DNA from: a virus
Length of the DNA: 54,831 nt
Reading direction: 5' to 3' (one strand)
Virus record (IMG/VR): IMGVR_UViG_3300006100_000015
Span: 1 to 54,831 of that record
Shown: positions 32,301 to 46,674 of the stretch, piece by piece
How positions within the stretch are numbered: the stretch's first letter is position 1
Layout of the letters: every line of letters starts with the position of its first letter
Program-made: the position numbers and the translations under genes
Notes under the pieces: generated by a model
Told to the model about the DNA's origin: nothing
The model's input: the letters and a program-made list of their open reading frames with translations, nothing else
The model's database searches: none

Positions 32301-35053
32301 CTACATTAACTGCTACAACTAACGGATCATTTACATTATCAAGTTCTAGTATTACTAACAGTATATTAACTGTTGGTACTTTGAGTGCAGGTACAATCAC
32401 TCCAGGAGCTGTTATTTCAGGTGGTAGTATTCCTGCTGGAACATATATTATATCAAATATATCTGGTAGTGGTAACGGTAGTACTTGGAACGTAAGTACA
32501 AGTTCAGGATTTACACAAACTAGTACAAGTATTACAGGTACATTAAACATTATCACTGTTAACTCTAACAGCGGTATGTTAATTGGTGAAACATTTACAG
32601 TTGCTACTAACGTAGGTAACTTGATTTCAGGTAACACATATTATATTACTAAAACTATTAGTACTAACCAGCTTGCTGTAGGTACTGTGTATGGTGCCAC
32701 AAGTGATTTGACTTTAGTAACAACTACTGGTCAAAGTGTTAGCGTAACAGCTGGTGCGACATTAGGCGGCGGTAATTTAACAGCTAGTACTACATTCTAT
32801 ATCACTAGTGTAGCAGGCAGTAATATTACAATTAGTACAGTATACAATGGTTCATCGGTAACTATTGCTAACGGTACAGGTGTATGGACATTTGTAGCAG
32901 GTGCCGCTTTTGGTAGTATTACAAGCGGTACAACATACTACGTTACAAGCATTCCAACTCCGGGTGTAAACGGTACAATCACTGTAAGTACAACTTATGG
33001 CGGTTCTAACTTAACTGTAACAAACGGAAATGGATCATGGTCAGTAACTGAAGGTGCAACATTTGGTGGATTAACATCCGGCTCGACATATTTCATTACT
33101 GAAATTGTTGGAAGTACACTAATATCAGTAAGTACAATTTATGGTGGAACCAATGCGGTAGTTACTAACGCTGGCGGATCTTGGACTGCACAAGCAGGTT
33201 CATTATTTGGTAACTTGATTTCAGGTAATACATACTATATTGCTAGTATTGCAGGCAATCAGATTACTGTAAGTGCAAGTAGTACTTTATCTCCAGTAAT
33301 TACATTAGTTAATGACACAGGTGCATGGACAAGTACAATTGGTACAAACATCGCGGCAACAAGTTGGGACGGTATCAACTGGACACAGCAAACATTGCCA
33401 ACATACGCAAGTTGGATCACTCCATCATTTGGTAATCCATTAGTTACAACAACTGGTTACACACCACTATGGGTAACCGCAAGTAACCAATCTGGTACAG
33501 TAGCGGCAAGTATTCATACCGGTGCAACACCGTTGGCACGTACAAAAGTAGCTAGTGGTGCTTTAACTGAAATACGTATGATTGAACCAGGCAGTGGATT
33601 TGCTAAAGGTGTTGTTACTGGAACTACGTATGTTGCTGGTACAACAGTTACCGTAACAGCCGTATCTGGAAATTCAATTACAATCGGTGCAACCAATTTA
33701 ACAATTGGCCAACCAATTACATTTGCTACTGGGTTTGGTAACGTAGTTGCAAACACAACTTATTATGTACAAGTAACAAGTTCAGGTACAACACTAACTA
33801 TCAGTTCAACTTATTATGGTAGTCCATTTAATGCAGGTACTGCAAGTAGCATATCAGTAGCTGGTACAGTTGGACCATTGAATTTAATTACTGTAGATCA
33901 AACAGAAAACATGTATAATCTACAACCAATTGAATTCAATACTGTAAGCTCTGGCGGATTAAGCACACAAACAACTTACTATGTAATTGGATCAACAATT
34001 CAATCTACTACATTCCAAGTTGCAACTTCATCTGCATTGGCAACAATTGGTACTAGTGTTACATTAACAACAAGTACTCCAACTGGTATGCAATATACAA
34101 CAGGACCAACATTAACTATTACCGATCCTAACCAAGTTAACAAAGCACCAACTCGTGTACGTACAGGTGATGGTGTGTTAGGTAACCCAAGTTTCCCATG
34201 TCGTGGTGCTGGAAATGCAACAGCAACAGCAAGTATTACTGGCGATGGATATGCTGATATCTACCAGAATACAGCATTTATTAACGTTGCTAATTTATAT
34301 GCATTACCTGCCGCAGGTGCTAACGTACAGTTCAGCAGTATTTCTAACGCATGGTACAAACTAGTTGCTACAAGTAATCAATTAGGACAAGCAGGTAACT
34401 ATACTGCTACATTCCAAGTAAGTCCAAGTCTAACAACTTATCTTGCTCCACCGAACGGTGCATTGATTACTACAAGATTGAAATACAGTCAAACACGTTT
34501 AACTGGACATGACTTCTTGTATGTTGGCTCAGGTAACCAAACACAAACTAACTATCCAAACGTTACTGATGCAAATGCAATTCAGGCTAACCAAACATAT
34601 CCAAATATTGGTGGTCGCGTATTCTTTACATCAACTGACCAAGACGGTAACTTTAACGTTGGTAACTTGTTTGGAGTTCAACAAGCGACTGGTACAGCTA
34701 CATTGAATGCCAACGCATTTAACTTAGCTGGATTACAGAGTTTGACACTAGGTTCAGTAAGTTTAGGTGTAAATAGTGCAACGATTACGCAATTTAGTAC
34801 AGATCCGTACTTTACTGCTAATAGTGACAATATTTTACCAACACAAAAAGCTATTAAATCTTACATCACAGCCCAAATTGGTGGCGGATCAAGTAGTTTG
34901 AACGTAAATACACTAACGGCAGGACAGATATACATAGCTGGTAATACTATTAGTAACCTAAATGGTAATCAAATTTATGTTAGCAGTAAGATGCTGTTCA
35001 CAGGCGGAATTGACGGTGCTCCTGTAGCTACCGTATTCTTCTTATCAAGATAA
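20381..35053 (+). CDS. Giant multidomain tail fibre/adhesin, 4890 aa
   Basis: A paralogue of the 2845-aa protein with the same order (approximate residues): 1-705, CBM5/12-like repeats; 757-2560, an enlarged beta-helix region opening VYVSSTTGVD, with VKTGTYNEVLPIVVPSYTSI (1120) and GGYKSMVANDYTCVIGDGIG near its end; 2823-3280, BNR/Asp-box-like repeats; 3300-4320, long arrays of GTTYYV-type modules, the last few tandem; 4583-4890, the conserved end (DFLYVGSGN, FFTSTDQDGNFNVGNLFGVQ, STDPYFTANSDNILPTQKAI). It carries four copies of a helical RDxGxxIDxLxYDxxxGGN module against one in the shorter paralogue. At roughly 500 kDa it would be an exceptionally long virion protein. Glycan recognition is inferred from the fold types; no catalytic residues were identified. 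Confidence 0.85.
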   Translation: MAQFKLGRIKFVYQGTWTTGTGYVVDDVVTVGGRTYICTTSNTASATFATDFSSGYWSVVADGSRWTGNWTNNQYYLVNDQVLYGGVVYLCTTAHTSASSTATITPTAATANGTTATLTFTALSSNIQPFLVGASITVSGFSAQTGFNGTFTVTACTATTVSYALAQSLTGTVMGTVSGTGTLGLEVNQSNWTSFASSFNWTGAWTINTRYKYNDLVSYGGLNYICNTAHVSANTTTLGLEANQSSWTVFNTGVAYQGLWNGNSTHYRINDIVKYGASLWICTTAHTSSGTFASANFSVFVNGLEYVSGGNNAWVGSITLTAASASGGTATLSFATQSAIPFAVGQSITVSGVTPSSFNGTFIVTGTPTTTQVSYALAGSLTGSVFGTVAANYVTGDIVSYGGNLYTAIASNTATTPSTGTASWQVFSTGFSFQGDWSGLTSYKIGQVVRLGGYTYMAMADNAQQTIIANQTSSGSNSVSVSATGSLVANLPIVFSGTSFGNIVSGTTYYVGTIIDSTHITLLTSSGGSTLAVTNATGSLTGTTQSQPPFSTYWTRLNAGIRWNAGTTQSYNGLSGTNITAAGSGAQFNVTTSGTTYSVTVKSGSQGTGYSASTTLKILGTQVGGISPANDITITITGVTAGAINLSSGITWTGYSVTWITASNYVLGDVVYFGANSYICVSAHTSASGNRPDADTTGTYWNLLASGAESAVLTTQGDLAYYGTNGPTRLPVGTDGQILRVGGTIPSWAYYGQINNIVYVSSTTGVDSLGASQGTTIDKPWATIRYACYQIENGYLNTNTTGLLSINKQFMLKEINNYVYYSYSFNVTGTSVQTITVGGTSSIAQTVTTNMYSGMPIVFTQTSGNIVAGTTYFVAQVINSTSFNIATTYANATAASPTLFTVGTGSANIGTYSYNQAKTERDTGTVIDGLLFDIGRGGNYKTTTNALAYFANSTTFATNVNAYDIPPFVSALNYLNTLATNYVLTNTSAAVSYQSTVWPGVTITGASGTGAVATITFATQPYVYPVGQFITVAGVNPSGYNGTYIVVASTLTSVSYASTTTTSYVSGGTVNVARATQQINTGYTAELTGVARVANLISIITSPLTLGYTTNVQPAATPNTTIFVKTGTYNEVLPIVVPSYTSIIGDELRGTVVQPAGPNLNMINDKTRSINSLTRIQSLIPNLLQNTAITPTSGNTQYLTVTGASGTGSVATLTFASQTSAPFNVNQYITVTSVNPSGYNGSYIVTAVTTNSVSYTSTTSASYVSGGVVSGQATGLPAGDVGSTTVVNQINTSVSLINDMIYNGLPKTPAITIPQLTGYNTSYLVGFGYGITQIQNNYLFIKAEIAAYLNTYYSSVWTTFGGTNQTETLRDIGFVLDGLQYDMTYGCNNQSIINGSSYYSLQIPQILASYNAATVGALQRLQAIISQIVTGTSVTATSGNSVTQSTGGSAGSAAAASFAAGRVGDVIYWLQNATSNATTLTLVGSVSGTTLTVTSGTGNGIYIGSMLTGTGVVAGTYIVNQLTSSASATAATTLASGGSAGTNTFVVSSATGIAAGQLITGTNLPAGSYVSSSYISGTSITVVNAFGAPQNFTSTGGTGAYLFYPANGAGTYTLSTSGNTGTTFTALSTFTPVTSGAYALVTNQYLQTAYNNLIARQTEIASDAQVWVQKYYQAYPISQSLTQRDAGYIALALAWDVLFGTNFNSIACGRAFNRLNASALALVANTNQELNATTGAITFIGFKAKQIASAGSTVQAQTLIDDIVTKINGQVAFNTVGSAILAGTQTIAYGTADVITVTTSGGTATFSVSLTPATTGQTITYITAGGLATFSSAQTLVKGTSVTLAAAAGGMSAGTYYVTTGVNNSFTVSLSSSYANAVAGTPGSFTGGTVTGAVGVVTIGTYYNTIASVTVTSGGNWNNTSLYSAAQATTTTSSGQGLTLSLGFVSSSYSTTVAGVQTSSNIVTLGSTAGMPTNMPITFSGLPALGSVTATATTTTSNLITVATTTGLSVGQQVYFTGTVFGNIVPSQLYYIASIPTPGTNGTITVSLTFGGGNVALISATGTMTMAFNNAGGLWNNTTYWINSLQSAATLSTLAITSTTGVFSCATSSVTLTVGQPVVITGTFSAGSITGYTSGATYYIIGNPTSTAFQLSATLGGSAVTSTTSGGTITGITVTVPAATLTLTNSFKSGTAYTITNTVTGMSATTTAGATVTWPYLNNPMINGSLTYNDNVLTIQGTEILRANIPFLAAEASAYTVASYGGTVSSITSGSVVNTSGAHNLLVNDPVVFTGTVGSSNIVAGTTYYVLTVPSSTTFTISATQYGTGTQTTFTLATGSLGSLTVGYYYNYAKCVRDTTNFINALIYDINYTGNWKSMRAAELYVNAVAGSTTQNFYLVRNACGIRNQTMNGLTGVLSTANAYGTRRPTAGAYASLDPGFGPNDQNAWVYARSTFVQNCTMFGYACVGAKVDGALHAGGYKSMVANDYTCVIGDGIGWWTTGTGSLSELVSVFNYYSYAGYMSELGGRIRATNGNSSYGTYGVVAEGVDTFETPIYGTVNNRSYGPQVTNVVTDSTTQILRLEYENAGTNYTNAIPTISGSGYNILSFADEFRDAGVFESRLIDLNNGLGVGGSSYVSSVNVGQGGAVGYITIAAADVALTGSYNGMKVQITAGTGVGQYASILTYTNGSKIAQIIRTTFATLTVTSSSTTALTVASTATLYVGMPIYLSTTATNMNLTAYQVYYVQAISSTTQFTLALTSGGSAITGLTATSGQTVSLYAAGWDHVVPGTPIVNTLDLTTAYIIEPYVSFTGPGYAATARTLPATAIWSSITYGAGNYVAIANGSTSTAISTNGKTWTPGGALTASAFTNVVYGGGQSAAATVTLGGFGGSGAQLTAVIGTGTSLGQVVGVNVINGGYNYNTAPSLLFTGGGGTGAQGTAVVLNGVIQSVIITVNGSGYTSAPTVTVVTSAITAITPITWGKNYFNSGNVSVTISAPFSGTVWSGSSSATSGSYYYYYSGATQATNYYLATSSGTFSSTAPTFTTGTGSAGTYGVSLTFVGTAATATPTLTDYGVSSYTITNIGYGYTATPTITILDTSAKFVAISTTTTATAYSTVANLGSSWTSGNALPSAGFNSLTYGNGIYVAVGYTGTTSNASAIITSSPDGVTWTGRTAPSGATQAFTSVAFGWTGPGSSATTTGMFVAIATNSTSTAYSTNGLTWTTGGALPSVANWSSVTYGNGRFVAVAAGSNIVAYSNNGGVTWYSSVANNGTYLPLAQNWGISYGEGQFFATATGPTPTMTATTSSGNLITLSSTAGLNVGNTIVPTAVTETTVASQTINATAIGLSTSFISNGIAGNAGTTLTAPVGLGPFALGMYLTGSNVTSGTYITGSNTFNSTSSTIAGSILTIGGTVTGTGTTSAYSVQPGMALTGAQFNTTSSYIWNTYYPSGVQTGVFVPAGTTTGVITTGSQLSGTNITTGATYIVSNPTTSGSTITGTASPSTVVTFNGSVSIVNGQGILTVSSTPSGVGIQPGYILSGTGVTAGTTIVAPYGSSTTPTSSTGQWIVSVATVVSSTALTGTPYVLTTTGTINNNTLIPGMVLASTGGTGTITAGTYITGQISTTSSAVGTGTGVSGTIGTTTLVISGSSTGFAVGQLITGGSLFYNTYVVAVSVATNTTITLSQPLYATIGGGTYNGYIPGTAGQYFISTTSLVTSVTVTGNAWVANTGSLVPSTTITGGLTAYIAYQNTSSASAVASPSWASGGTIGASSFVVNTGTGIVAGQLIIGTGIPSGTVVASSYVPGSTTVPLAVGVAGGAAATIAGSNATGTYNFYTAGGTGTYTLNTSALTISSAQTIGGQSWTITPSQTAAAGAITGTQNTITVGNTAGMSVGEPIVFTSNIVSTTLTTTAATGNLLTVGTTVGMAVGAPVVFTAVTQTGNITSTSSTGNTITLNSTTGLVQGETIVFTAVSQTTTLTATTNGSFTLSSSSITNSILTVGTLSAGTITPGAVISGGSIPAGTYIISNISGSGNGSTWNVSTSSGFTQTSTSITGTLNIITVNSNSGMLIGETFTVATNVGNLISGNTYYITKTISTNQLAVGTVYGATSDLTLVTTTGQSVSVTAGATLGGGNLTASTTFYITSVAGSNITISTVYNGSSVTIANGTGVWTFVAGAAFGSITSGTTYYVTSIPTPGVNGTITVSTTYGGSNLTVTNGNGSWSVTEGATFGGLTSGSTYFITEIVGSTLISVSTIYGGTNAVVTNAGGSWTAQAGSLFGNLISGNTYYIASIAGNQITVSASSTLSPVITLVNDTGAWTSTIGTNIAATSWDGINWTQQTLPTYASWITPSFGNPLVTTTGYTPLWVTASNQSGTVAASIHTGATPLARTKVASGALTEIRMIEPGSGFAKGVVTGTTYVAGTTVTVTAVSGNSITIGATNLTIGQPITFATGFGNVVANTTYYVQVTSSGTTLTISSTYYGSPFNAGTASSISVAGTVGPLNLITVDQTENMYNLQPIEFNTVSSGGLSTQTTYYVIGSTIQSTTFQVATSSALATIGTSVTLTTSTPTGMQYTTGPTLTITDPNQVNKAPTRVRTGDGVLGNPSFPCRGAGNATATASITGDGYADIYQNTAFINVANLYALPAAGANVQFSSISNAWYKLVATSNQLGQAGNYTATFQVSPSLTTYLAPPNGALITTRLKYSQTRLTGHDFLYVGSGNQTQTNYPNVTDANAIQANQTYPNIGGRVFFTSTDQDGNFNVGNLFGVQQATGTATLNANAFNLAGLQSLTLGSVSLGVNSATITQFSTDPYFTANSDNILPTQKAIKSYITAQIGGGSSSLNVNTLTAGQIYIAGNTISNLNGNQIYVSSKMLFTGGIDGAPVATVFFLSR
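20410..22500 (+). repeat. Array of CBM5/12-like repeats in the second giant fibre
   Basis: Units open with YQGTWTTGTGYVVDD, WTGNWTNNQYYLVND, WTGAWTINTRYKYND, YQGLWNGNSTHYRIND, YVTGDIVSYGGNLY, FQGDWSGLTSYKIGQ and WITASNYVLGDVVYFG. An intact copy reads HVSANTTTLGLEANQSSW; another has a ~75-residue module wedged between HTS and LGLEVNQSNW. This gives a before-and-after view of a loop insertion. Confidence 0.65.
28850..30240 (+). repeat. BNR/Asp-box-like repeats in the second giant fibre
   Basis: Units with WSSITYGAGNYVAIA-type strands and Asp-box-like turns STNGKTW, SPDGVTW, STNGLTW and SNNGGVTW are recognisable; one more (SWDGINW) lies about 3 kb further on near 33365, separated by the GTTYYV-module array. 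The array thus seems to have been split by a late expansion of the inserted modules. Confidence 0.5.
32740..33350 (+). repeat. Tandem ~48-residue modules in the 4890-aa fibre
   Basis: Four consecutive units of about 145 bases run GATLGGGNLTASTTFYI, GAAFGSITSGTTYYV, GATFGGLTSGSTYFI and GSLFGNLISGNTYYI. Each is followed by an ITVSTxYGGS strand and an NGxGSW or NDTGAW ending. DNA segments such as GGTAACTTGATTTCAGGTAA recur nearly unchanged at 32622 and 33210. Head-to-tail order and residual DNA identity indicate fairly recent duplication. Confidence 0.6.
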
Positions 35054-35434: not shown

Positions 35435-37405
35435 ATGGCACGTTATAATACATCGCTGGCAACAGAAATTGTTTCCGGAGCACAAACTCTGTTAACACCT
35501 GCACAAGGTGGTTACACAGAATTTCAAGGATCTGCACCGTACACGGTGGTTATCCCAGGACCAACATTATTTTTAGGACAGTCGCAAAGTTATTTTAACA
35601 ACACTAGTGGTGTTGTTACACTTTCTGCTCCTAGCGGATATATTGCTGGTAGTCCTAGTTCTCCGGTGTTTAACGGACCAGGTGGTTCTAGTACAAACTT
35701 ATTGGCCATGCCAGCAGGATCTAGTTGTATTATTGGATCTGATGGTACTAACTATAGTATAATTACATTCCCAGGCGGTAATCAATTTGGTATTAACGGA
35801 ACTTTTTCAGCTGATTTGATTAGTACCAATACTGGTACCACCAATATCTACAATACAAATACTCAGACAGTTAACTTTGCAGGCGCGGCAACTAGTATCA
35901 ATATTGGTTCTAGCACTGGTACAACTACTATTAACAATCAATTGTTAGTAAAAGGCGGAACAGTTGTTCTTAACTCTAGTTCAGTACGTACAGAAGATAA
36001 AAATATTGAAATTGGATATGTTAATCCAGTTACTTATGGTGGCGGTACTGTTACAACTATCGGTGGTGCGTTAGGCGGTAGTACAACATTTACAAGTATT
36101 ACTGGTACAAAAGTAACTGGTGCAGGTACATACAGTGGTGTTGGACAATTTGCTACAAGTGGTAGCGGATCGGGTGCAACTTTTAACATCACTACAACTG
36201 GGTCAGGTACAACTTATACTGGTGTAACTACAATTACATTGGTTAATCCAGGAAGTAACTATGCAATCAATGATACAATTACTATTGGTGGTAACTTACT
36301 TGGTGGTACTAATAGTCCTAACAACTTAACATTCACTGTAAGCAACGTTAACTACAGTCCTTGGATTGCAACTATTACCGGTATGCCCAACACTACCAAC
36401 TTGGTAAACGGTCAAGCTGTTAGTGCAACTAACGGTACAGGTAGTTTAGGCGGCGGCGGTACAAGTTATGTAATAAGCAACATTGTAAGTGGAACTAGTA
36501 TTCAGGTAACAGTAACAGGCGGCACAACTCCTGTAGCTGGTACAATTACAGCTATTACTCCAGGTAGTGCTGATACATTTGCCAACGGCGGCGGCATATT
36601 ATTATATGGAACTAGTAATCACACATTACAATGGGCAAGCAGTACATTAGGTCCAACAAGCGGTGGCGGTAACCCAGCTTGGGTTAGTTCAGAAGGGTTG
36701 TATATCAATACTTCTAATACATTTGGTATTCAAAGTGGTAGCAACGTTAACTTTAACTTATTGACCAACGGTCAAGCTACTGGTACTGTTAACATTGCAA
36801 CCAACGCTGGTACAGGTAACTTGTTTACTGGAGCAAGTTCAGCAGTTAACATTGGTGCTAGCGGTGGTACTGCTACAATCAGCAACACTAACTTTACAGT
36901 TGGACAGTCTGGTGGTACAGTTACTTTTAACGGTATTACAACTTTCACAATGAATAGCGTAACAGCGTTTAACTTAACTGGCGGCGGTACAATGAATGCT
37001 GGTAGTACATATGGTTATTTTAGTTCGCTAGGCGTTGGTACTAACACTAACGGTGGTGGTGGTACAATTTATGCGGCAAACAACATTGTTGCTTACTACT
37101 CAGATGACAGATTAAAGACACGTTTGGGCAAAATTGAAGATGCTCTTGCTAAGTTAGAAACATTAAATGGTTTTTACTTTGAAGCTAACCAAACTGCTCA
37201 GGATTTGGGATATACTGTTCAACGTGAAGTTGGAGTTTCTGCTCAAGAAGTTAATGCAATCCTGCCAGAAATTATCAAACCAGCTCCAATCGACGCTAAG
37301 TACATGACAGTTCAGTACGAAAAGTTATTACCATTAGTGATTGAAGCAGTTAAGGAATTGTCAAGCCAAGTTAAAGAATTAAAAGCACAGATTAACAAGG
37401 AATAA
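35435..37405 (+). CDS. Tail fibre with C-terminal S74 intramolecular chaperone
   Basis: A 656-residue fibre. Residues 1-130 form a distinct N-terminal domain (VSGAQTLLTPAQGGYTEFQG), probably the attachment end. Residues 130-540 are repetitive beta shaft, including a GSGSGATFNITTTGSGTTYTG module shared with the giants. Residues about 550-656 match the S74 chaperone domain of endosialidases and other fibres. The Ser-Lys dyad is in YYSDDRLKTRLGKIEDALAKL, followed by GVSAQEVNAILPEIIKP and VQYEKLLPLVIEAVKEL. In this family the domain guides trimer folding and then releases itself at the Ser of SDxRLK. The mature fibre would therefore end about residue 555. Only this fibre in the window has the domain. 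Confidence 0.9.
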   Translation: MARYNTSLATEIVSGAQTLLTPAQGGYTEFQGSAPYTVVIPGPTLFLGQSQSYFNNTSGVVTLSAPSGYIAGSPSSPVFNGPGGSSTNLLAMPAGSSCIIGSDGTNYSIITFPGGNQFGINGTFSADLISTNTGTTNIYNTNTQTVNFAGAATSINIGSSTGTTTINNQLLVKGGTVVLNSSSVRTEDKNIEIGYVNPVTYGGGTVTTIGGALGGSTTFTSITGTKVTGAGTYSGVGQFATSGSGSGATFNITTTGSGTTYTGVTTITLVNPGSNYAINDTITIGGNLLGGTNSPNNLTFTVSNVNYSPWIATITGMPNTTNLVNGQAVSATNGTGSLGGGGTSYVISNIVSGTSIQVTVTGGTTPVAGTITAITPGSADTFANGGGILLYGTSNHTLQWASSTLGPTSGGGNPAWVSSEGLYINTSNTFGIQSGSNVNFNLLTNGQATGTVNIATNAGTGNLFTGASSAVNIGASGGTATISNTNFTVGQSGGTVTFNGITTFTMNSVTAFNLTGGGTMNAGSTYGYFSSLGVGTNTNGGGGTIYAANNIVAYYSDDRLKTRLGKIEDALAKLETLNGFYFEANQTAQDLGYTVQREVGVSAQEVNAILPEIIKPAPIDAKYMTVQYEKLLPLVIEAVKELSSQVKELKAQINKE

Positions 37406-37408
37406 ACG

Positions 37409-37810
37409 ATGACAACTCCTTCAAGTCCTATTTATATTAGTCAAATTGACGGCGAAATTGGACTGCCTAACAGCAGTCCATACAGCAATTTGAGTAATCT
37501 TAATGGATATGTAATTCCAGGACAACGTGATAGTTACCCAACTATGAACGAAATGCGTAACAGAGCATACTATCGTTCAAATAACAAGGGTAATTGCAAC
37601 AACGGAAATTGTCCAAATAATTGTAATTGTGGTAACATTTGCTGTACAAACTGTTATAATTGTAATAACATCAATTGCACAAATTGCGATGGTCAAAACT
37701 GGTTACAAAACAACTGTAATTGCAACTGCACTTACAACTGTAACATTAATACCAACGTATATTATAACTGTAATTGTAACTGTAATTGTAACTGTAACTG
37801 TAACTGCTAA
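37409..37810 (+). CDS. Asn-Cys repeat protein with virion-type N-terminus (putative radical-SAM substrate)
   Basis: A 133-residue protein in two parts. Residues 1-58 (YISQIDGEIGLPNSSPYSNL, then PTMNEMRNRAYY) resemble the small SQIxxExG...MxExxxxxY domain common in phage structural proteins. Residues 61-133 hold 21 Cys, 19 of them directly preceded by Asn, ending in seven perfect Asn-Cys pairs. There is no signal peptide. It starts 3 bases after the S74 fibre gene and ends 18 bases before a radical SAM/SPASM gene; a Cys-rich peptide beside a SPASM enzyme is the usual layout of precursor and maturase in ribosomally made modified peptides. I infer that it is the substrate, either a displayed virion peptide or a released product. 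A plain metal-binding or disulfide-rich protein is the alternative. Confidence 0.75.
   Translation: MTTPSSPIYISQIDGEIGLPNSSPYSNLSNLNGYVIPGQRDSYPTMNEMRNRAYYRSNNKGNCNNGNCPNNCNCGNICCTNCYNCNNINCTNCDGQNWLQNNCNCNCTYNCNINTNVYYNCNCNCNCNCNCNC
37766..37807 (+). repeat. Seven-copy hexanucleotide repeat encoding (Asn-Cys)7
   Basis: Seven in-frame copies of AA(C/T)TG(T/C) end at the stop codon. Copies differ only in wobble positions. A 6-base unit can grow or shrink without shifting the frame, so length polymorphism between related phages is expected. Confidence 0.9.
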
Positions 37811-37828
37811 TATACCACAAGGAATCTT

Positions 37829-39295
37829 ATGATTTTTGAAATACTGACAGAAAAGTTTGGATCAAACCCACCTGATCTAAGAACGTTCTTCTATGACAAC
37901 GAAAAAAATGTCTTAAGCGATGAAACAGGATTCGTCTATGAGTATCCCGATGCTTATGCAAATAATTTTGAAAATCGAGTACCATACAAACCATTTGATA
38001 AAGATCGTCCTTTAATTAAATCTCGCAGTACTAATCACGTAAAAATTCAACTAGGATTAAGTTGTAATTATAGTTGTGATTATTGCAGTCAAAAATTTGT
38101 GGAACGCCCACGTGAAACTAATGCTAAAGACATTGAAAATTTTATGGAAATGTTTAAGACTTTAGAGTTTAACGAAGAAGACGGTTTACGAGTTGAATTT
38201 TGGGGAGGTGAACCTTTAGTTTACTGGAAGACATTAAAACCCCTGGCCGAAGCAGTAGCAGAATTTTTTAAAGATTGGAGAAAGAAACCAGTTTTTAGTA
38301 TTATTACTAATGGTAGTATTTTAACAGAAGAAATCTGTGCTTGGCTATACAGTATGGAATTCCATGTAGCTATCAGTCATGACGGGCCAGGACAACATGT
38401 ACGCGGACCAGATCCATTTGCAGATCCTAAGAAACGTGAAATTATTTTAGATTTATACCAGATTTTGCGTCCTTTAAATCGCATCAGTTTTAACTCAATG
38501 TTAAACAGACAAAATCTTAGTCGTAAAGCTATATTTGATTATTTTATTAATTTTACAAATGATCCCAATGTTAGTTTAGGTGAAGGTACCTTTGTAGATG
38601 CATATGATGCCGATGGCCTACAACACAGTTTACAAACTAAACAAGATCATTTCGAATTTAGAAAAATCGCGTTCGGAGAAATTTACGGATCTAACGGTGA
38701 AATCGGCTTTGGCAACATATTACAAAAAGTTGATAATTTCACAGAATCAGTATTGACCCATCAGCAAGCAGACTATTTAGGTCAAAAATGCGGCATGGAT
38801 GACGAAAGAACCGTTGCATTTGATTTAAACGGCAATGTAATTACTTGCCAAAATGTCAGTGCTATCGAAATTAACAAAAACGGAGAACCTCACTTAGGTG
38901 GTAAGATTACTGAGATCGAGGACGTAAAAATTACTACTAGTACACACTGGAGTAATCGTGCAGAATGTCCAAGTTGTCCAGTGTTGCATATTTGTAAAGG
39001 TGCATGTATGTTCCTTTCAGATGAATTCTGGACTACAAGTTGCAATAACGCCTATAGCGATAACGTACCATTGTTTGCCGCAAGTATTGAAAAAATAACA
39101 GGTGGTTATGTTCCTTACCATATTAAGGGCAAAGGATTACCATTAGAGCGCCAAGATATCTGGGGCGGTGTATTCAAACACGAAGAAGAAAAGAAAAAAA
39201 TAATACCTATTAAGATTGTCAGTGAAAAAGTTGCTGTAATCGACAATGTCGAAGTTTACGGTAAGAGTTCCTTGATAAATACTGAACAGGAATAA
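37829..39295 (+). CDS. Radical SAM / SPASM-domain enzyme (putative peptide maturase)
   Basis: A 488-residue enzyme. Cys79, Cys83 and Cys86 form the CxxxCxxC cluster motif (CNYSCDYC) that binds the SAM-cleaving 4Fe-4S cluster, followed by EFWGGEPL, the GGEP SAM-binding motif. The C-terminal part has a complete SPASM pattern: C-x13-G-x4-C (CGMDD...NGNVITC), then CPSCPVLHICKGAC, matching Cx2Cx5Cx3C, then a further Cys after a gap. SPASM proteins carry two extra clusters and typically modify peptides (anSME, PqqE and sactipeptide/ranthipeptide maturases). Residues 1-70 are an extra N-terminal segment I do not recognise and may bind the substrate. Context makes the Asn-Cys protein upstream the likely substrate. 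The chemistry (thioether, epimerisation or other) cannot be told from sequence. Confidence 0.9.
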   Translation: MIFEILTEKFGSNPPDLRTFFYDNEKNVLSDETGFVYEYPDAYANNFENRVPYKPFDKDRPLIKSRSTNHVKIQLGLSCNYSCDYCSQKFVERPRETNAKDIENFMEMFKTLEFNEEDGLRVEFWGGEPLVYWKTLKPLAEAVAEFFKDWRKKPVFSIITNGSILTEEICAWLYSMEFHVAISHDGPGQHVRGPDPFADPKKREIILDLYQILRPLNRISFNSMLNRQNLSRKAIFDYFINFTNDPNVSLGEGTFVDAYDADGLQHSLQTKQDHFEFRKIAFGEIYGSNGEIGFGNILQKVDNFTESVLTHQQADYLGQKCGMDDERTVAFDLNGNVITCQNVSAIEINKNGEPHLGGKITEIEDVKITTSTHWSNRAECPSCPVLHICKGACMFLSDEFWTTSCNNAYSDNVPLFAASIEKITGGYVPYHIKGKGLPLERQDIWGGVFKHEEEKKKIIPIKIVSEKVAVIDNVEVYGKSSLINTEQE

Positions 39296-39308
39296 GGAAT
39301 AGCAGATC

Positions 39309-40304
39309 ATGAATTTAACTCAAAATTTAATACAGTTTCAACATTCGCAGTTGATAGCACTAGATATAAAATTTACTGACACTGGATTTCAGTGGACAGT
39401 ATTTGATGCCTATAAAAAATCAGAATTGCAGTTGGAATGGGCTAGTTTAGCAGATAATACCGTTACTGCTAGAAAAGTAGCCGGAGTTAGATATCCAAGC
39501 CCTGCTGACGAATTTGCATGGGAAACAGAAACACATAGAGTTTATAGTCAAACTTCAGGAGTCTATCCTGGTGTAACAGCAGGAATTTCTGGAGAAATAA
39601 ATTGGACAGATATTACCAACAATGAGGGATTTTCAGATCATGCTATTTTTGCAATCACTCACCCAGCTGACCAAGTTACTGTAAGAAATTTAAATGTAAG
39701 ATACGTTCAACAAACTGCTTTGAATACAAGAACAGGTATCCCATTATACAATTTAGTAGCCAATTCACAACTACATAAGAAAAATCCAGTTAGGGCAATG
39801 TCTTTGCAAAAGAATAGTCCTATGATTTTAATTTCTATTCCGTTTGCAGAAATGAATCCATCAGATTGGAACATGATGGTTGCGTTGGGCGATAGCGATC
39901 CTGGCCTAGTAAGAATATCGTCAGGCGAACAATTCACAAATGTAATCACCGACGAGCTTGGCAGAATCGTATATACTATGCCAAAAGTTTATTTTACAAA
40001 TAAGACTGCTACTGTCAGCCCAGACGGCTATGTCGATTTACCGTTTTACTTAGGAACTCCTACCGATTTAAATCCCCCAGCAAAAACAAGCTCTGAGCAT
40101 GGATTGCCTATAACGGATCACAATGCAACTATATATTTAAAAACTACGGCAGGTCACTTGAATAAACAACAAGTACAAACAGTCAACGGTGTAGGAACTG
40201 TTCGTTTAATTGCAACACATCTTGTTCCAGGTGACACTATCACAGTAAGTTGTGGTTTTCAATATTGGTCAGGATCAGACGACTGCGTTATAACCGTACA
40301 ATAA
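39309..40304 (+). CDS. Putative virion protein with C-terminal Ig-like domain
   Basis: A 331-residue protein of unknown family. The N-terminal part (MNLTQNLIQFQHSQLIALDI, TDTGFQWTVFDAYKKSELQL) and the centre (NSPMILISIPFAEMNPSDWN) look globular. Residues about 255-331 (ATIYLKTTAGHLNKQQVQTV, GTVRLIATHLVPGDTITVSC) have the strand pattern of an Ig-like domain of the invasin or phage-surface type. It lies between the radical SAM gene (13-base gap) and the halogenase-like gene (7-base gap), so the three are surely co-transcribed. It could be a virion protein modified by these enzymes or a scaffold presenting the substrate; both are inference. No catalytic motif seen. Confidence 0.65.
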   Translation: MNLTQNLIQFQHSQLIALDIKFTDTGFQWTVFDAYKKSELQLEWASLADNTVTARKVAGVRYPSPADEFAWETETHRVYSQTSGVYPGVTAGISGEINWTDITNNEGFSDHAIFAITHPADQVTVRNLNVRYVQQTALNTRTGIPLYNLVANSQLHKKNPVRAMSLQKNSPMILISIPFAEMNPSDWNMMVALGDSDPGLVRISSGEQFTNVITDELGRIVYTMPKVYFTNKTATVSPDGYVDLPFYLGTPTDLNPPAKTSSEHGLPITDHNATIYLKTTAGHLNKQQVQTVNGVGTVRLIATHLVPGDTITVSCGFQYWSGSDDCVITVQ

Positions 40305-40311
40305 GGTTTTT

Positions 40312-41514
40312 ATGAAAATAGGCATTATAGGTAGTGGTACCGCCAGCGCCGTTTCATTACTTGCAATTTTTGATAAATTTAAATTCCATAGATGCAAACA
40401 CATAGATGTGTATTGCATATACAATCCTGACATTCCTGTAACTACTGTGGGCGAAAGTACTAGCCCTATAATGCCTAGTTTACTTTATCATGCTATTGAT
40501 TTTTCTGTTACTGAAGAATTAAAAGAGTTCGATGGTACCCTTCGCTGGGGTACTCGTTACTACTGGGAAGATATTAATGATAAAAATTTCCTAGTAAGGC
40601 ATGGACATACAGGATTGCATGTCAACAGTGAAAAATTTAGCGGATTTGTTATCAACAAACTTGATAAATTATACGATAATTTTTTTCAAATACACGGTAA
40701 TGTCTCAGACATAACACAAGATCATACTCACGTATCGATATTAGTCGACGGAGTGCAACATAAATTTGACTATATCATCGATTGTAGAGGATCACCGTCG
40801 GCCGAAGAAATGGATAGTGGACTATACGAATTTCCAAAATTTGAAACAGTTAACTCAGTAATACTATTTCCTGACTTTAAAGAGTATAACGAAGATTTAA
40901 CAAGTGCATATCCACATGACGACGGCTGGATGTTTGGAGTACCATTAACTCATCGTAAAGCCTTTGGTTATCTATATAATAAAAATATAACAACTCAGGA
41001 AGAAGCGATTGAAAAATTTTCTAAATTAAAAAATATTGATGCTAGTAAATTAAGAAAATTTAGCTGGAGACAGTATTATAAAAAAGAAGCAATGAATGGA
41101 CGCATATTATCCATGGGTAACAGACTATATTTTCTTGAACCTGCACAAGCATTGCCGTTACATTTTTATATAAATTTGTCTGTAGAGTTTATTGAAACAT
41201 TAATTAAAGGTACTAATTTACAAACACCGCATTTTAATAGAGGAATTAATACTTCTTATCTTAAAAGTATGGAAGATATGTTGAATTTAGTTGCACTAAA
41301 CTATGTAGGTCCTTGCAAAAAAGATACGCCTTTCTGGAATACAGTCACAGCACTGGCTAAAGAACGTTTACAAACATCGGAAAGATTTCAAAAATATGTA
41401 AGATTGTGTCAGCAGACTGGAGAATACGAGCAGTATTGGGCACACAATTCAGCCTTGATGAAAGAATATATCGAAGGCTTTGATATTAAACTAGATCAAC
41501 TAAGTCAAATATAG
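40312..41514 (+). CDS. Flavin-dependent tryptophan-halogenase-like enzyme
   Basis: A 400-residue FAD enzyme of the PrnA/RebH superfamily. It has an N-terminal dinucleotide-binding loop (MKIGIIGSGTAS), the family motif VGESTSP near residue 45 (VGEATIP in PrnA), DYIIDCRGSPS as the second FAD motif, and GWMFGVPLTHRKAFGYLY, which corresponds to the halogenase GWxWxIPL...GYVY signature with a Phe for the second Trp. The lysine that is catalytic in PrnA (Lys79, in GAFK) aligns by eye with Arg in DGTLRWG. It is shorter than typical halogenases (about 500-540 aa). Halogenases of this family are known in marine phages (VirX1). Halogenation, hydroxylation or another flavin oxidation of the neighbouring peptide or fibre is possible. 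The gene ends 29 bases inside the convergent Nudix gene. Confidence 0.78.
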   Translation: MKIGIIGSGTASAVSLLAIFDKFKFHRCKHIDVYCIYNPDIPVTTVGESTSPIMPSLLYHAIDFSVTEELKEFDGTLRWGTRYYWEDINDKNFLVRHGHTGLHVNSEKFSGFVINKLDKLYDNFFQIHGNVSDITQDHTHVSILVDGVQHKFDYIIDCRGSPSAEEMDSGLYEFPKFETVNSVILFPDFKEYNEDLTSAYPHDDGWMFGVPLTHRKAFGYLYNKNITTQEEAIEKFSKLKNIDASKLRKFSWRQYYKKEAMNGRILSMGNRLYFLEPAQALPLHFYINLSVEFIETLIKGTNLQTPHFNRGINTSYLKSMEDMLNLVALNYVGPCKKDTPFWNTVTALAKERLQTSERFQKYVRLCQQTGEYEQYWAHNSALMKEYIEGFDIKLDQLSQI

Positions 41515-41935
41515 TTTGTAATTTGGTACGAATAGTTTTACTGTTAAAACTATTACGTAGTCCTTGATGTAAGGGTTTAGGTGTGCGATCTACAGTAGTC
41601 CAAGCCCAACCAATGTGTTCGTCACTCAAGACAGGAACAAACTCGTTATCTATTACACACAAATAAGTATGAAAATTAAATACTTTATCGTTACTGACAA
41701 ATGTTTCTAATGGGATTGTTTTAATTATTTTAGGCACTGCACCTATTTCTTCTTTAATTTCGCGTTGAAGACCTTGCCAAGGTGTTTCACCTATGATGTT
41801 TGTCCCGCCGACTAATCCCCACGTGCCTTCGTGTTTACCGTGACTTTTTTGAAGTAATAAAAATCGTTGTGTAGATTTAGCATAAAATAATGCACCACTA
41901 CAAACTATTCTATCTTTTACAATATTATTTTCCAT
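41486..41935 (-). CDS. Nudix hydrolase
   Basis: A 149-residue protein with a perfect Nudix box Gx5Ex7REUxEExGU (G-TNIIG-E-TPWQGLQ-REIKEEIGA). The Glu residues of REIKEE would bind the Mg2+ needed to hydrolyse a nucleoside diphosphate linked to another group. GTWGLVGG just before the box is typical of MutT-like and GDP-mannose-type Nudix enzymes; substrate cannot be assigned. Its start overlaps the end of the gp15-like gene by 19 bases, making it the third gene of a minus-strand operon with neck and tail-completion genes. Its stop lies inside the end of the convergent halogenase-like gene. A role in nucleotide clean-up or in sugar-nucleotide or mRNA-cap metabolism is possible. Confidence 0.88.
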   Translation of the reverse strand: MENNIVKDRIVCSGALFYAKSTQRFLLLQKSHGKHEGTWGLVGGTNIIGETPWQGLQREIKEEIGAVPKIIKTIPLETFVSNDKVFNFHTYLCVIDNEFVPVLSDEHIGWAWTTVDRTPKPLHQGLRNSFNSKTIRTKLQTIFDLVDLV

Positions 41936-43380
41936 TGGCCCACACCATATTCACCTTCAAAGCTCTTGACCCATGCAACCCCGTTCCACAAGTACTGAAC
42001 TCCAGTGTATATATTCGTTTGCCATACCATAGTGTCTGATTCTAGAGCGGCATGAAAAATAACTTGCCATACTGAACCAGTATATTCTATAATGTCATTA
42101 GCATTAGCTACTAAACTGCCCCATACGACAGCAGGATTTGTATTAGTCGTGTTGCCTATATCTTCAATAATTAGATAACGTGTACCTGCTATTGGGTTGT
42201 TAGGTGTATAAGTTTGAGGATTAATAATGGCATCAAAAGTACCAGGGCTGTTTGGTCGATAACTAGTAGCGGCATTGTAATCTTTTACATCTGTACTTAA
42301 AAATCCGTTACTATCAATTCCAGTATTGCTAGTCAATGTATCTGTATTATAATTAATTTGTAAAATTGCAGGATTTGTAGGATTAATAGCAATAGTACCT
42401 ATAACGTAAGTCCCATTTGGTTGCAACAAATACAACATACTAGAACCTGCAACATATTTTCCGGGGAATAAATTGAATACACTTTCCCAACTTTGAGGAT
42501 TACTGATCGGAGTAGGAATAGTCAACGTCGGTTCTGGAGGATTAACACCTCCTCCTGATTCTAACAAAGTTGCCTGGCCGTCGTATACTGCTATAGGAAA
42601 TCCTGTAACTGTAACATTTTCAGTAGCAAGCAAATTGCTAAATGACGGACTAGTGCCATCAGATTGTAGTGCAGGATCTATTCCTAATCCTTCAACATAC
42701 CCAGACGGATAAGTTCCTTCGGACCCATAGACACTTGTAATAATTTTTGTAATAACACCAAGATGTTTGACCTTAACTGGAGGACTAATCCAGATAGGAG
42801 AATCTAAACTTAATGTTGCTATATCAATAGGAGTATCATTGCCGACAGGAACTTGTCTACTATCCCAAACGATATCTCCTAAATTAAGAACTGATAAACT
42901 AGTCCAGTCAATATAGTTGTCTGTGGTTTGCAATTCTAAACTAGGGTTGAATAACACTAGTATTTGTTCTAATATTTGTAATTTTTGATCAGTACTGCTA
43001 GTCCAAATATCGCATTTCATCTTTAATTGAAAAGGAGTAGGCATCAAGCGTTCAACTGTATAATTACGTCCTTGATTTCCGGTATAATTATTTCCGTTAA
43101 TATCTCTTTCGCGAAAATGCAACTTGCCTACATAAGTTTGATCAGCTAACCTATTTCTATCTAGTTCTAAACCAGTTACATACACACTTATACGTGGAAT
43201 ACTATTAACAGCATTTTCACTGTTTTGACGTATGATGCTGGCCACTTGACGATCTGCATCGCCGTACATTACGGGTACTTGATGTAGTGTTCCATCTCCA
43301 TATTTGACCACAAAATTACTGAGCACTCGTATAGTTTGTGTCAAATATCTTCTTACTTGTCCGTCATAAAACCACTGCAT
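41917..43380 (-). CDS. 15: Tail completion and sheath stabiliser, gp15-like, with C-terminal extension
   Basis: A 487-residue protein. Residues 1-220 align by pattern with T4 gp15, the hexameric ring that caps the finished tail and joins it to the neck: FYDGQVRRYLTQTIRVLSNF (T4 FYNSSFRRYATLMGDLFSNI), QVPVMYGD, IPRISVYVTGLELDRNR, PTPFQLKMKCDIWT, QILEQILVLFNPSL and the closing SPIWISPPVKVK. T4 gp15 is 272 aa. The extra ~260 residues include a domain of the type YLIIEDIG...NANDIIEYTGSVWQVIF...GVQYLWNGVAW that I associate with other aquatic T4-like structural proteins. The ATG at 43380 overlaps the stop of the gp14-like gene. Confidence 0.82.
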   Translation of the reverse strand: MQWFYDGQVRRYLTQTIRVLSNFVVKYGDGTLHQVPVMYGDADRQVASIIRQNSENAVNSIPRISVYVTGLELDRNRLADQTYVGKLHFRERDINGNNYTGNQGRNYTVERLMPTPFQLKMKCDIWTSSTDQKLQILEQILVLFNPSLELQTTDNYIDWTSLSVLNLGDIVWDSRQVPVGNDTPIDIATLSLDSPIWISPPVKVKHLGVITKIITSVYGSEGTYPSGYVEGLGIDPALQSDGTSPSFSNLLATENVTVTGFPIAVYDGQATLLESGGGVNPPEPTLTIPTPISNPQSWESVFNLFPGKYVAGSSMLYLLQPNGTYVIGTIAINPTNPAILQINYNTDTLTSNTGIDSNGFLSTDVKDYNAATSYRPNSPGTFDAIINPQTYTPNNPIAGTRYLIIEDIGNTTNTNPAVVWGSLVANANDIIEYTGSVWQVIFHAALESDTMVWQTNIYTGVQYLWNGVAWVKSFEGEYGVGQWKIIL

Positions 43381-44840
43381 TATAGATCCGCCCTAGGTTT
43401 GAGAGCAGTTGATAAACTTGATCGTTGTGCATCTCGTGTATTATATAGTGTAACTGTCCATTGACCAGCAGTAGGTATGGTTTGTTGCGTGTTGTTTATA
43501 GTTGGCAATGTGATTCTTAAACAAGTTGTTTGTATTCCTGCTGGACTTGTATACAAATATGAACTATACATTGTCGGATAATCACTTAATGCATATTCTA
43601 ATTGCGTTACACCAAATTTAAATACTACATAAGGAATAGCATTGTTTGTTGCATACAATATTCTAGTATTGATTTGTGTGTCGCCCAGTGCTAATGAAAT
43701 CACATCACTTGATACTTGATCATTATAGGTATAATTTGTATTGTTGATAAAGCCAGTTTTTAATGTTGATCTTGTATCATTATTAGTCATATTCATTCTA
43801 ACCGCATCTTCTACTTTAATCCATGCACTGCTTGGTCCGTCAAAACGAAATAATCTGTTAGGTAAGAAATCTGTTCTCAAGAAAAAATCATCTGTGCCTG
43901 GGTTTTCGGGAAATTGTATACCAAACCCAAATGCATTACCATTGGCAGGATACCCATTACCAATTAAATATCCTGTGTATCCAGGACGAACTGGTTTAGC
44001 ATTGTTTTCATTAGCAAGATAATTGATTTGGCTTGCATCTAATGTAGTTTCGTCAGCAGTCTCTAGTAAGGGTTTTCCAGTGGTTGGATCTACAGCCAAG
44101 GTGTAGAATTGTCTAGTTTCATATCCGCTCATAGGAGAATCTGCTTCTGCCTGTGCAACTATTTGTTGATTAATTTCCATCTCTTTGTTGAATGTACTCA
44201 ACAAGTCTTTAAGAGTAACGTTAGCTCCAACAATTGGATCGCCATTGGCATCTGTAGCGGCTTGATTAAAAATTGATTGAAATTGTTGTTGATCGTTGAT
44301 ACGTTTAAGTTTTAATCTATATAGATGCGGAAACCACGTAACACTAAATCCTTCACTTGCACGGCCTACATCGGTAACTTGATAATATCTAGGTAAACTT
44401 ACATCAAAATCGTTTAGAGCAAAATCGTCACGTAGATGCGGCAATTCTAAAACATCTCCGCTAATAGGTTTACGTCCAATAGTTTTAATAATGTCATTAA
44501 TATGAACAGTCATATACAACGTATCGTTATCAATAAACAATCCAAATTGACTTAAATTAAAATCAATATTCTGTACGTTATACATGCCTCTAATTCTATA
44601 CACTTCAGTTTCATACTTACTATCGCGATTTTCTAAAAAAAGCAAATCTTGAATGTTAGTAACATTATCATTTGGATAAAATGGCTGTTCGGCAGTGGCA
44701 TTGGCTTCCTGGGTATTTGCACCCAACAATTTGTGCCAATAAACATCGGTTCCACCTACTGTGAACATTTCGCTAGCTTGACGATCTATAAATTGATAGT
44801 CGTTGCCTTTTTCTGGTTTGTATAAGGATAATCGTGGCAT
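43380..44840 (-). CDS. 14: Neck protein, gp14-like
   Basis: A 486-residue protein starting MPRLSLYKPEKGNDY. Residues about 20-170 match T4 gp14 in order: GGTDVYWHKLLG (T4 GVECYYVPRE), NIQDLLFLENRDSKYE, FNLSQFGLFIDNDTLYMTVH (T4 FFSNFGMQVQDEVTLSI), SGDVLELPHLRDDFAL (T4 EGDLIYFPMDNSLFEI) and PRYYQVTDV. gp14 helps form the neck between the portal and the tail completion ring. At 256 aa T4 gp14 is about half as long; the added C-terminal ~300 residues are not recognised. Linkage to the gp15-like gene (overlapping) and divergence from gp13 support the call. A late-promoter-like box lies five bases before the ATG with no Shine-Dalgarno sequence. Confidence 0.65.
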   Translation of the reverse strand: MPRLSLYKPEKGNDYQFIDRQASEMFTVGGTDVYWHKLLGANTQEANATAEQPFYPNDNVTNIQDLLFLENRDSKYETEVYRIRGMYNVQNIDFNLSQFGLFIDNDTLYMTVHINDIIKTIGRKPISGDVLELPHLRDDFALNDFDVSLPRYYQVTDVGRASEGFSVTWFPHLYRLKLKRINDQQQFQSIFNQAATDANGDPIVGANVTLKDLLSTFNKEMEINQQIVAQAEADSPMSGYETRQFYTLAVDPTTGKPLLETADETTLDASQINYLANENNAKPVRPGYTGYLIGNGYPANGNAFGFGIQFPENPGTDDFFLRTDFLPNRLFRFDGPSSAWIKVEDAVRMNMTNNDTRSTLKTGFINNTNYTYNDQVSSDVISLALGDTQINTRILYATNNAIPYVVFKFGVTQLEYALSDYPTMYSSYLYTSPAGIQTTCLRITLPTINNTQQTIPTAGQWTVTLYNTRDAQRSSLSTALKPRADL

Positions 44841-46439: not shown

Positions 46440-46674
46440 TTTGTTTACAATTATCTAAATTTCCATCAATGTGGAACACATTAAATACTTCTTTGTGCGG
46501 GCTTTTAAACCCGCATTTGTCGCAAGTATGTTTTAGTTTGTATCCAGCCTGCTGCCATCTAGGCAGTTTGACACCTCGTAGGCAGTTACCGCACAGGCTT
46601 CTGTAATAAGTCTGTCCGTTTTTATAATAATTGATGGCTACCGGTGCCCTTCCGCATGAACATAATGGTCTCAT
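46348..46674 (-). CDS. Small zinc-finger/HNH-like protein
   Basis: A 108-residue protein with several Cys pairs: CSC near the start, CGNC at about 28-31, CDKC at about 50-53, CANC at about 85-88. The stretch FHIDGNLDNCKQTNLKTVC has the order H-x-DGN-x-x-N...C-x-x-C of HNH nucleases. I infer a zinc-stabilised HNH-type nuclease or nucleic-acid-binding protein; catalytic activity is not certain. It is antisense to its neighbours and its last 30 codons overlap the end of the dNMP kinase tail to tail. A TTAAATA box ends four bases before the ATG and no Shine-Dalgarno sequence is visible. Confidence 0.7.
   Translation of the reverse strand: MRPLCSCGRAPVAINYYKNGQTYYRSLCGNCLRGVKLPRWQQAGYKLKHTCDKCGFKSPHKEVFNVFHIDGNLDNCKQTNLKTVCANCQRVLHREGVQWRQGDLVPDL

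Follow-up and report, generated by a model that had tools for sequence, protein, structure and literature searches.

Association of a radical SAM/SPASM enzyme with cysteine-tailed tail proteins suggests that phages modify their own fibre tips

Background

Two described peptide-maturation systems, those of the ranthipeptide maturase PapB and of the SCIFF maturase CteB, resemble a gene pair that we analysed in a viral DNA of 54,831 nucleotides (IMG/VR record IMGVR_UViG_3300006100_000015, positions 1 to 54,831; "the window" denotes the whole of this stretch): in all three, a SPASM-type radical S-adenosylmethionine (SAM) enzyme with seven auxiliary cysteines is encoded beside a Cys-rich peptide or protein. 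According to passages of the published work, PapB makes thioether links between Cys and Asp, with spacings of 0-6 residues (PMC9413430). The system in the window differs from both in that the end of a tail-type phage protein would serve as the substrate and the repeat is Cys-X-Cys, instead of Cys-X3-Asp or the SCIFF motif. Similarity extends also to the anaerobic sulfatase-maturating enzymes (anSMEs), which provide the top Foldseek match of the window enzyme and the label of its homologue in Achromobacter phage JWF, but which differ from it in family score and by an Asp where it has Gln. Residues of metal-binding type that alternate close to a fibre tip are familiar from the His-X-His iron sites of T4 gp37, whereas here Cys replaces His, the repeat occupies the very end of the protein and a dedicated radical SAM gene is present. 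As for flavin halogenases, the phage enzyme VirX1 (PDB 6qgm) is matched (1.2e-45) by an enzyme from a related locus with a Trp-ended peptide (L065), while the flavoenzyme of the window has lost the catalytic Lys and the WxWxIP motif.

The window enzyme is by score a member of PHROG 1802, whose library label is just "radical SAM domain-containing protein", category "other". Our search of open-access PMC articles, preprints excluded, turned up no publication in which a radical SAM enzyme of a phage acts on tail proteins, and the words "radical SAM" and "sulfatase" are absent from the main text of two papers that mention phage JWF (PMC9959647, PMC7996906). Each of the enzymes belongs to a known class, and we found no precedent for a virion tip as the substrate. 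The comparative analysis presented below suggests that phages modify their own fibre tips, by a chemistry that is undescribed as far as we searched, and we consider it likely that the enzyme and the adjacent Cys-rich protein form a maturation system of the virion tip.

The gene pair in the window

The locus comprises five contiguous genes on the plus strand, separated by gaps of 3, 18, 13 and 7 bases. Their order, the gaps and the S74 fibre upstream, as given in a preliminary description of this DNA, are confirmed by the open reading frames (ORFs) and by the PF13884 match. The genes, and the regions of the Cys-rich protein, are as follows (aa, amino acids):

35435..37405, plus strand: S74 tail-fibre protein, 656 aa (PF13884, 2.7e-08; long-tail-fibre PHROGs), the upstream neighbour, without a Cys tail itself
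37409..37810, plus strand: Cys-rich protein, proposed tip protein and substrate, 133 aa (alignment, relatives)
37829..39295, plus strand: radical SAM/SPASM enzyme that would modify the Cys tail, 488 aa (families, alignments, model)
39309..40304, plus strand: fast-changing protein with a C-terminal Ig-type domain, 331 aa
40312..41514, plus strand: flavoenzyme resembling tryptophan halogenases, probably without halogenase activity, 400 aa (PF04820)
37409..37573, plus strand: N-terminal module of the Cys-rich protein, residues 1-55 (alignment)
37589..37765, plus strand: conserved Asn-Cys core, GNCNNGNC..NC.NCD.Q.WLQ.NCNC..YNC (alignment of relatives)
37766..37807, plus strand: C-terminal (Asn-Cys)7 tail, 14 residues (sequence; a C-terminal signature common to relatives)

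The 21 Cys that had been noticed in the first protein were recounted, and all of them fall within residues 63-133. Across the family Asn precedes 72% of the Cys in the core region, and the spacer X of the C-X-C units is Asn, Ala or Asp at 97% of 266 positions in the core family and at 92% of 215 positions in fibres. Residues 1-55 are likely to serve attachment to the virion or the fibre. Comparison with the relative in L006 over 128 aligned codons revealed 58 identical codons, 53 silent differences and 17 amino acid changes, a pattern according to which the gene is under purifying selection. Its origin from chance or low-complexity DNA was considered and ruled out, both by the excess of silent changes and by the rarity of such runs elsewhere. 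Candidate substrates range from proteins of about 90 aa to proteins of 600 aa. A tblastn search of named phages with the Cys protein returned no match, and its PHROG and PDB profile searches were uninformative, the commonest PHROG matches coming from two of 27 members, which we take to be those bearing S74.

Conservation of the pair in viral and bacterial loci

Scanning IMG/VR with the enzyme alignment alone gave at least 499 relatives, of which the best 80 were kept; a scan with the Cys protein gave 110, again with the best 80 kept, and a scan of bacterial contigs with the enzyme alone gave 84, of which the best 80 were retained. On the enzyme side, a Cys-core protein adjoins the enzyme in 77 of the 80 viral loci, the three exceptions (L026, L029 and L047) each being cut by a contig end; on the peptide side, the enzyme is present in 80 of 80. 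The Cys-core gene precedes the enzyme in 30 loci (median gap 19 bases) and follows it in 47, and where it follows, its product usually carries an extra domain.

The bacterial loci, a good number of which are in metagenome bins, belong to Burkholderiales, Rhodobacteraceae, Rhodospirillaceae and a few further groups, and we presume that they represent prophages or misplaced phage contigs. Environmental hosts with the pair include Limnohabitans and Thalassobacter. Sixty-seven were regarded as testable, having either a run or at least 4.6 kb of upstream DNA; in 54 of these the same strand encodes, within 4.5 kb upstream of the enzyme, a protein that contains a ([NDAQS]C)3+ run. The runs are nearly always at or near the C-terminus or precede a Hint-like domain, in proteins that are mostly unrelated to that of the window, whose profile matches only L170, L172 and L232. 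Among six-frame ORFs of at least 60 aa, runs occur in 55 of 833 located upstream on the same strand and in two of 4588 others, counts that come from related, not independent, loci. Tail-fibre PHROGs are matched by six of ten Cys-tailed proteins from bacterial contigs (L177, L181, L184, L198, L202, L212). The 13 testable loci without a run comprise five with enzymes at no more than 33% identity, five with partial enzyme ORFs (L238, L241, L242, L244, L248) and three others, L229 (34%), L219 (37%) and L174 (47%).

Approached from the tail, a DNA scan for NCNCNC followed by a stop codon yielded at least 119 loci with 66 in-frame ends, 49 of which have at least 1.5 kb of downstream DNA. Among the matches listed, the enzyme adjoins 41 of the 49, mostly 12-3281 bases downstream, and nine of the 41 belong to the window's own clade. 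Fibre ends are often stabilised, which would agree with a plain disulfide-stabilised tip and an enzyme that is a hitch-hiker with another substrate; we find this hardly credible, given that the pairing holds with unrelated proteins across several bacterial lineages and in both gene orders.

Many phages and phage-like loci share the enzyme together with tail-type proteins that bear a Cys tail, and the enzyme-peptide pair in a tail-fibre context, as initially recognized, proved to be widely conserved in viral and bacterial loci alike. Co-occurrence of all four genes behind the fibre, proposed at the same time as a check, does not hold throughout: the conserved unit consists of the first two genes (Cys protein and enzyme) only, since the Ig-like gene was seen, among the loci collected, just in the window's clade, and the flavoenzyme gene is absent from the sister phages L022 and L023.

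Placement of the Cys tail and cultured phages

A search of isolate phages yielded only JWF (two records) and 2-1, both infecting Achromobacter, whose enzymes are 46% and 45% identical to that of the window. The JWF fibre gp28, encoded two genes upstream of the enzyme gp30, has the sequence NCNCDCNCNC directly before a Hint domain (PF05203, above the cut-off), and phage 2-1 carries a C-X-C run at the same place. More generally, the tail either forms a free C-terminus or directly precedes an S74 domain, a Hint-like domain or an unnamed domain starting with SKI[IV]C. It stands before Peptidase_S74 in L035 (above the cut-off) and L075 (by motif), and before Hint-like sequence in L150 and L168 (both under the cut-off); the tails of L084 and L150 are not free ends, as further domains follow. 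S74 and Hint domains self-cleave; therefore at least two of the three fusion types would leave the Cys tail as a new protein end, and we read these placements as evidence that the exposed end of the protein is what matters.

The SKI[IV]C domain, of about 170 aa, follows the Cys tail directly in L037 (7483-8385) and in most relatives of about 300 aa. In L037 it has no Pfam match, and it might represent a further module for cleavage or assembly.

The enzyme class is reminiscent of gene clusters for ribosomally synthesized and post-translationally modified peptides (RiPPs), and the preliminary description had considered a released or toxic product, which would be a modified bacteriocin or toxin made by the phage. 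That option lost its support because the Cys tail belongs to fibres or proteins like them: it either terminates a longer protein of the tail type or is fused to an S74 or Hint-like domain, the gene adjoins tail genes, and the eight genes scanned with Pfam around the locus (35435-44840) include neither a leader protease nor an exporter. We consider a released peptide extremely unlikely.

The radical SAM/SPASM enzyme

The enzyme matches PF04055 (2.3e-08, above the cut-off) and phrog_1802 (7e-62), and the SPASM model TIGR04085 gives 30.6 bits against a cut-off of 27. Its ten cluster cysteines, like the GGE motif G126-G127-E128, do not vary across alignments of 55 and 53 sequences (the latter a subset of the former) with identities reaching down to 30%; hence the complete radical SAM and SPASM motifs reported at first stand. 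They are located as follows:

38063..38086, plus strand: CX3CX2C radical SAM cluster motif, with C79, C83 and C86 invariant
38789..39043, plus strand: SPASM region, with invariant C321, C340, C380, C383, C389, C393 and C405

The AlphaFold model of the enzyme (mean pLDDT 90) finds its best VIA fold in CteB, with Z scores of 24.0 (357 residues, root mean square deviation (rmsd) 4.5) and 23.7 (332 residues, rmsd 3.6), followed by ChlB (20.7), anSME (20.4) and TigE (18.4). With respect to a possible peptide-binding RiPP recognition element (RRE), the alignment to CteB starts at residue 1 (chain 5why_B) or residue 23 (5wgg_A). PapB has the best NCBIfam model (NF047865), at 74.1 bits against a cut-off of 340; the SCIFF maturase model TIGR03974, which represents CteB, gives 42.8 against 425, and the anaerobic sulfatase maturase model TIGR03942 gives 44.8 against 349. 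Because all maturase scores are far below their cut-offs, we regard the enzyme, on sequence grounds, as representing a putative separate family among the SPASM peptide maturases.

One viral record (L168) carries two members of this enzyme family (G017:C1:34439-35776 and 96694-97896), 58% and 33% identical to the window enzyme and 61 kb apart.

Proposed mechanism and points that weigh against it

We propose that the 133-aa protein would be a small tail-tip subunit ending in the Asn-Cys core and the (Asn-Cys)7 tail, and that the adjacent SPASM radical SAM enzyme would modify its Cys-rich part before the virion is assembled or while assembly proceeds. The modification would consist of repeated thioethers, in which each Cys sulfur would bond to a carbon atom of an Asn, Asp or Ala close by and every link would cost 2 H, and the product would be a rigid, reduction-proof cap at the host-touching tip. 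The individual parts of this model are not equally firm: that the enzyme acts on the Cys-rich protein is very probable, and so, to the same degree, is the location of the product on the virion tip, while the chances of thioether chemistry appear evenly balanced, and it could go either way whether the modification serves host binding or tip stability. Thioether links are favoured because of the CteB fold, the proximity to PapB and the Asn, Ala and Asp spacers taken together. On the whole, the original idea of a peptide modification is strengthened by these results.

Several observations weigh against the model. As regards the chemistry, Ala makes up 39% of X in the core family, and links of Cys to Ala, or between residues i and i+1, would be unusual. 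As regards the location, the 133-aa protein has no family match in Pfam, PHROGs or NCBIfam, and four of the ten Cys-tailed proteins compared with PHROGs (L182, L176, L191, L216) have none either, so that placement on the virion is deduced indirectly. Enzymes without a Cys-rich neighbour had been named beforehand as an observation that would refute the idea; the viral cases (three of 80) are all explained by contig ends, but the bacterial L174 and L219 remain, with long enzyme ORFs, no tail and no explanation, and among loci at no more than 33% enzyme identity the tail is found in only three of eight. As regards the enzyme, Foldseek ranks anSME, which is not a thioether enzyme, at the top with CteB not far behind, and the top-ranked NCBIfam models are those of the PapB, QhpD, geopeptide and CcpM maturases, every one far under its cut-off.

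The anSME match, together with the annotation of the JWF homologue as an anaerobic sulfatase maturase, would agree with oxidation of Cys, whereby a relative of anSME turns the tail Cys into formylglycine aldehydes that react with the host surface. This is very unlikely: the TIGR03942 score is a small part of its cut-off, the tail lacks a CxPxR-type site, and Gln341, conserved at 90% or more, follows the SPASM Cys where anSME has an Asp. That Asp is catalytic in anSME, although our search of the literature on anSME residues found nothing on such a role.

A further point against the model is that eight of the 49 NCNCNC-ending proteins, among the matches listed, have no enzyme nearby; therefore the tail can exist without the enzyme. 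These proteins (L312, L375 and L399, of 202 aa; L309, L356, L367 and L388, of 184-190 aa; L345) resemble other protein families, and the available DNA of the four loci that were inspected holds no such enzyme. Cys-X-Cys is a common metal site, and the C-X-C alternation at protein ends, along with the tails that do without the enzyme, fits a tip in which inward Cys of a trimer bind iron, zinc or an Fe-S cluster, the enzyme loading the cluster or metal or modifying something unrelated. The HxH motifs of T4 gp37, as stated in passages of a published study, bind seven irons (PMC11705849). We nevertheless judge a metal core unlikely, as metal binding alone needs no SPASM radical SAM enzyme, though one adjoins most tails, and as the close folds and models of the enzyme are modifiers of peptides or small molecules.

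If the maturation of the virion tip by the pair is true, phages would broaden the chemistry of the surface that meets the host, through cross-links and decorations that enzymes place on the fibre tip, and tip modification would be a layer invisible to sequence-based host-range prediction. It would also provide a function for PHROG 1802 and a new peptide-modifying family with short, genetically encoded substrates, such as the 14-residue Asn-Cys repeat.

The flavoenzyme and halogenases of related loci

The fourth gene had been described as having flavin adenine dinucleotide (FAD) and tryptophan-halogenase signatures. The family assignment holds (PF04820, 1.3e-31), but the signatures are incomplete: the FAD motif GGGTAGW reads GSGTASA, and two further sites are altered, including WxWxIP, a halogenase motif:

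40543..40545, plus strand: codon of Arg78, at the position of the halogenase catalytic Lys (25 phage sequences aligned; the stretch of the RebH alignment scores only 7.5 bits)
40927..40944, plus strand: WMFGVP replacing WxWxIP (alignments to phage sequences and to RebH)

Arg78 presumably corresponds to Lys79 of RebH. Four lineages of the clade (L001/L003, L006, L008, L024) retain the gene, and a Trp is conserved inside the peptide core (WLQ), which could speak for an active halogenase whose target would be a Trp or Tyr in either the Cys protein or the Ig-like one. However, the window peptide has no C-terminal Trp, and L022 and L023, without the gene, have a WLQ region like that of L024, which has it. 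Besides, saturation mutagenesis of the catalytic Lys in Thal, as given in passages of the published work, left every variant inactive on tryptophan (PMC7948982). An active halogenase in the window, and with it the second tailoring enzyme of the preliminary description, was accordingly set aside as quite improbable on account of the changed Lys and broken WxWxIP, read with those passages on Thal (PMC7948982); the halogenase step is thereby weakened. The window protein is related to halogenases but has probably decayed or taken on another function.

Canonical enzymes are found in related loci whose peptides end in Trp (...CACACW, ...CACLW, and ...CACFW before the S74 motif in L035): in all 15 rows with such ends, a halogenase lies within 2 kb of the radical SAM enzyme, and the aligned halogenases of Trp-tailed loci have GGGTAGW, the catalytic Lys, WxWxIP and EPLEAT. 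The other rows include a halogenase in five of 86, all five from the window's clade, some of the 86 having little downstream DNA. A DNA scan for CACACW followed by a stop codon (45 stretches) gave 19 in-frame ends, namely 17 core proteins and two 43-aa frames that we take as chance; the radical SAM gene lies 16-28 bases further on in 16 of the 17 and a halogenase is present in 15, while the two loci without it have just 992 and 209 bases downstream. Thirteen of these 17 contigs are already among the loci of the enzyme or Cys-protein scans, and few independent origins lie behind the link: on a quick enzyme tree the Trp end changes twice and the halogenase five times, numbers with which a sign test could not reach significance.

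We infer that the halogenases of sister phages modify the C-terminal Trp of the same peptide family, and the simplest story is that a halogenase of the Trp tip decayed or changed its function after loss of the target. If so, some phage halogenases at least would have a candidate natural substrate in this C-terminal Trp; the passages of the literature available to us name none for them.

The four regions of cyanophage halogenases that we inspected have no Cys or Trp tail within 5 kb. Synechococcus phage syn9 (L417, 29493-40749) encodes two halogenases and three 2-oxoglutarate (2OG)-Fe(II) oxygenases beside tail-fibre assembly genes, a comparable arrangement that lacks a Cys tail.

Other tailoring genes

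Tailoring genes were counted in 18 long viral records with the pair (2.33 Mb), picked for length and in some cases related, with sub-cut-off matches excluded (five of PF13759 and one of PF05118). Within 8 kb of the enzyme lie 13 of 14 Asp/Asn beta-hydroxylases (PF05118; 1.9 expected), 23 of 33 2OG-Fe(II) oxygenases (PF13759; 4.4 expected) and five of ten halogenases (1.3 expected). Fatty-acid desaturase-like, B12 radical SAM-like and cupin genes also recur near the pair, the B12-binding and cupin matches being under the cut-off. Thus, the pair sits in a variable tailoring neighbourhood in these records; in the window itself, the scanned genes offer only the flavoenzyme and a NUDIX protein as possible tailoring neighbours.

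Tentatively, and with somewhat less confidence than an even chance, the maturation of the tip might be envisaged as a RiPP-like workshop, in which the SPASM enzyme would convert C-terminal (Asn/Asp/Ala-Cys)n tails of fibre proteins to a polycyclic thioether cap, self-cleaving S74 or Hint domains would expose the end, and interchangeable tailoring enzymes would decorate the tip, so that the chemistry of host contact would go beyond the 20 amino acids. The decorators would be the Asp/Asn beta-hydroxylase, the 2OG-Fe(II) oxygenases, the B12-type radical SAM-like and desaturase-like proteins and, on an exposed C-terminal Trp, the canonical halogenases.

Recurrent clusters beside the pair include desaturase-like (L033:4623-5345), B12 radical SAM-like (L041:3996-5522) and EF-hand-like (L037:8382-8759, under the cut-off) proteins. 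A two-gene partner, whose products have about 245 aa and 374 aa, the second with an SGGVDS motif resembling a PP-loop, comes after the enzyme in L010 (4967-6822), L027 (2901-4768) and others, and the loci with this partner have free tails ending in GG and similar sequences.

The Ig-like protein and other genes of the window

The third gene of the group, previously called Ig-like, has no family match in Pfam, PHROGs or NCBIfam, but in a model of medium confidence (mean pLDDT 65.5) residues 223-331 adopt an Ig-type fold, with a best Z of 8.5 over 94 residues and an rmsd of 2.6. Foldseek matches of the model are weak, one of 1653 having E <0.001. Against L006 the gene shows 178 amino acid changes and 55 silent codons. 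Against the near-identical phage L001 (9481-10476), 64 of 993 bases differ, mostly in codons 201-283, as compared with three of 1464 in the enzyme gene. A role in host contact fits the protein because it changes faster than its neighbour genes.

Elsewhere in the window, a T4-type tail sheath stabiliser gene (PF16724) is found on the minus strand, and a 108-aa Cys-rich ORF with CxxC pairs, possibly an HNH nuclease and present also in L002, lies at 46348-46674, likewise on the minus strand. Two giant ORFs are located just upstream of the fibre, at 20381-35053 (4890 aa) and 11809-20346 (2845 aa), the former being full of short repeat motifs.

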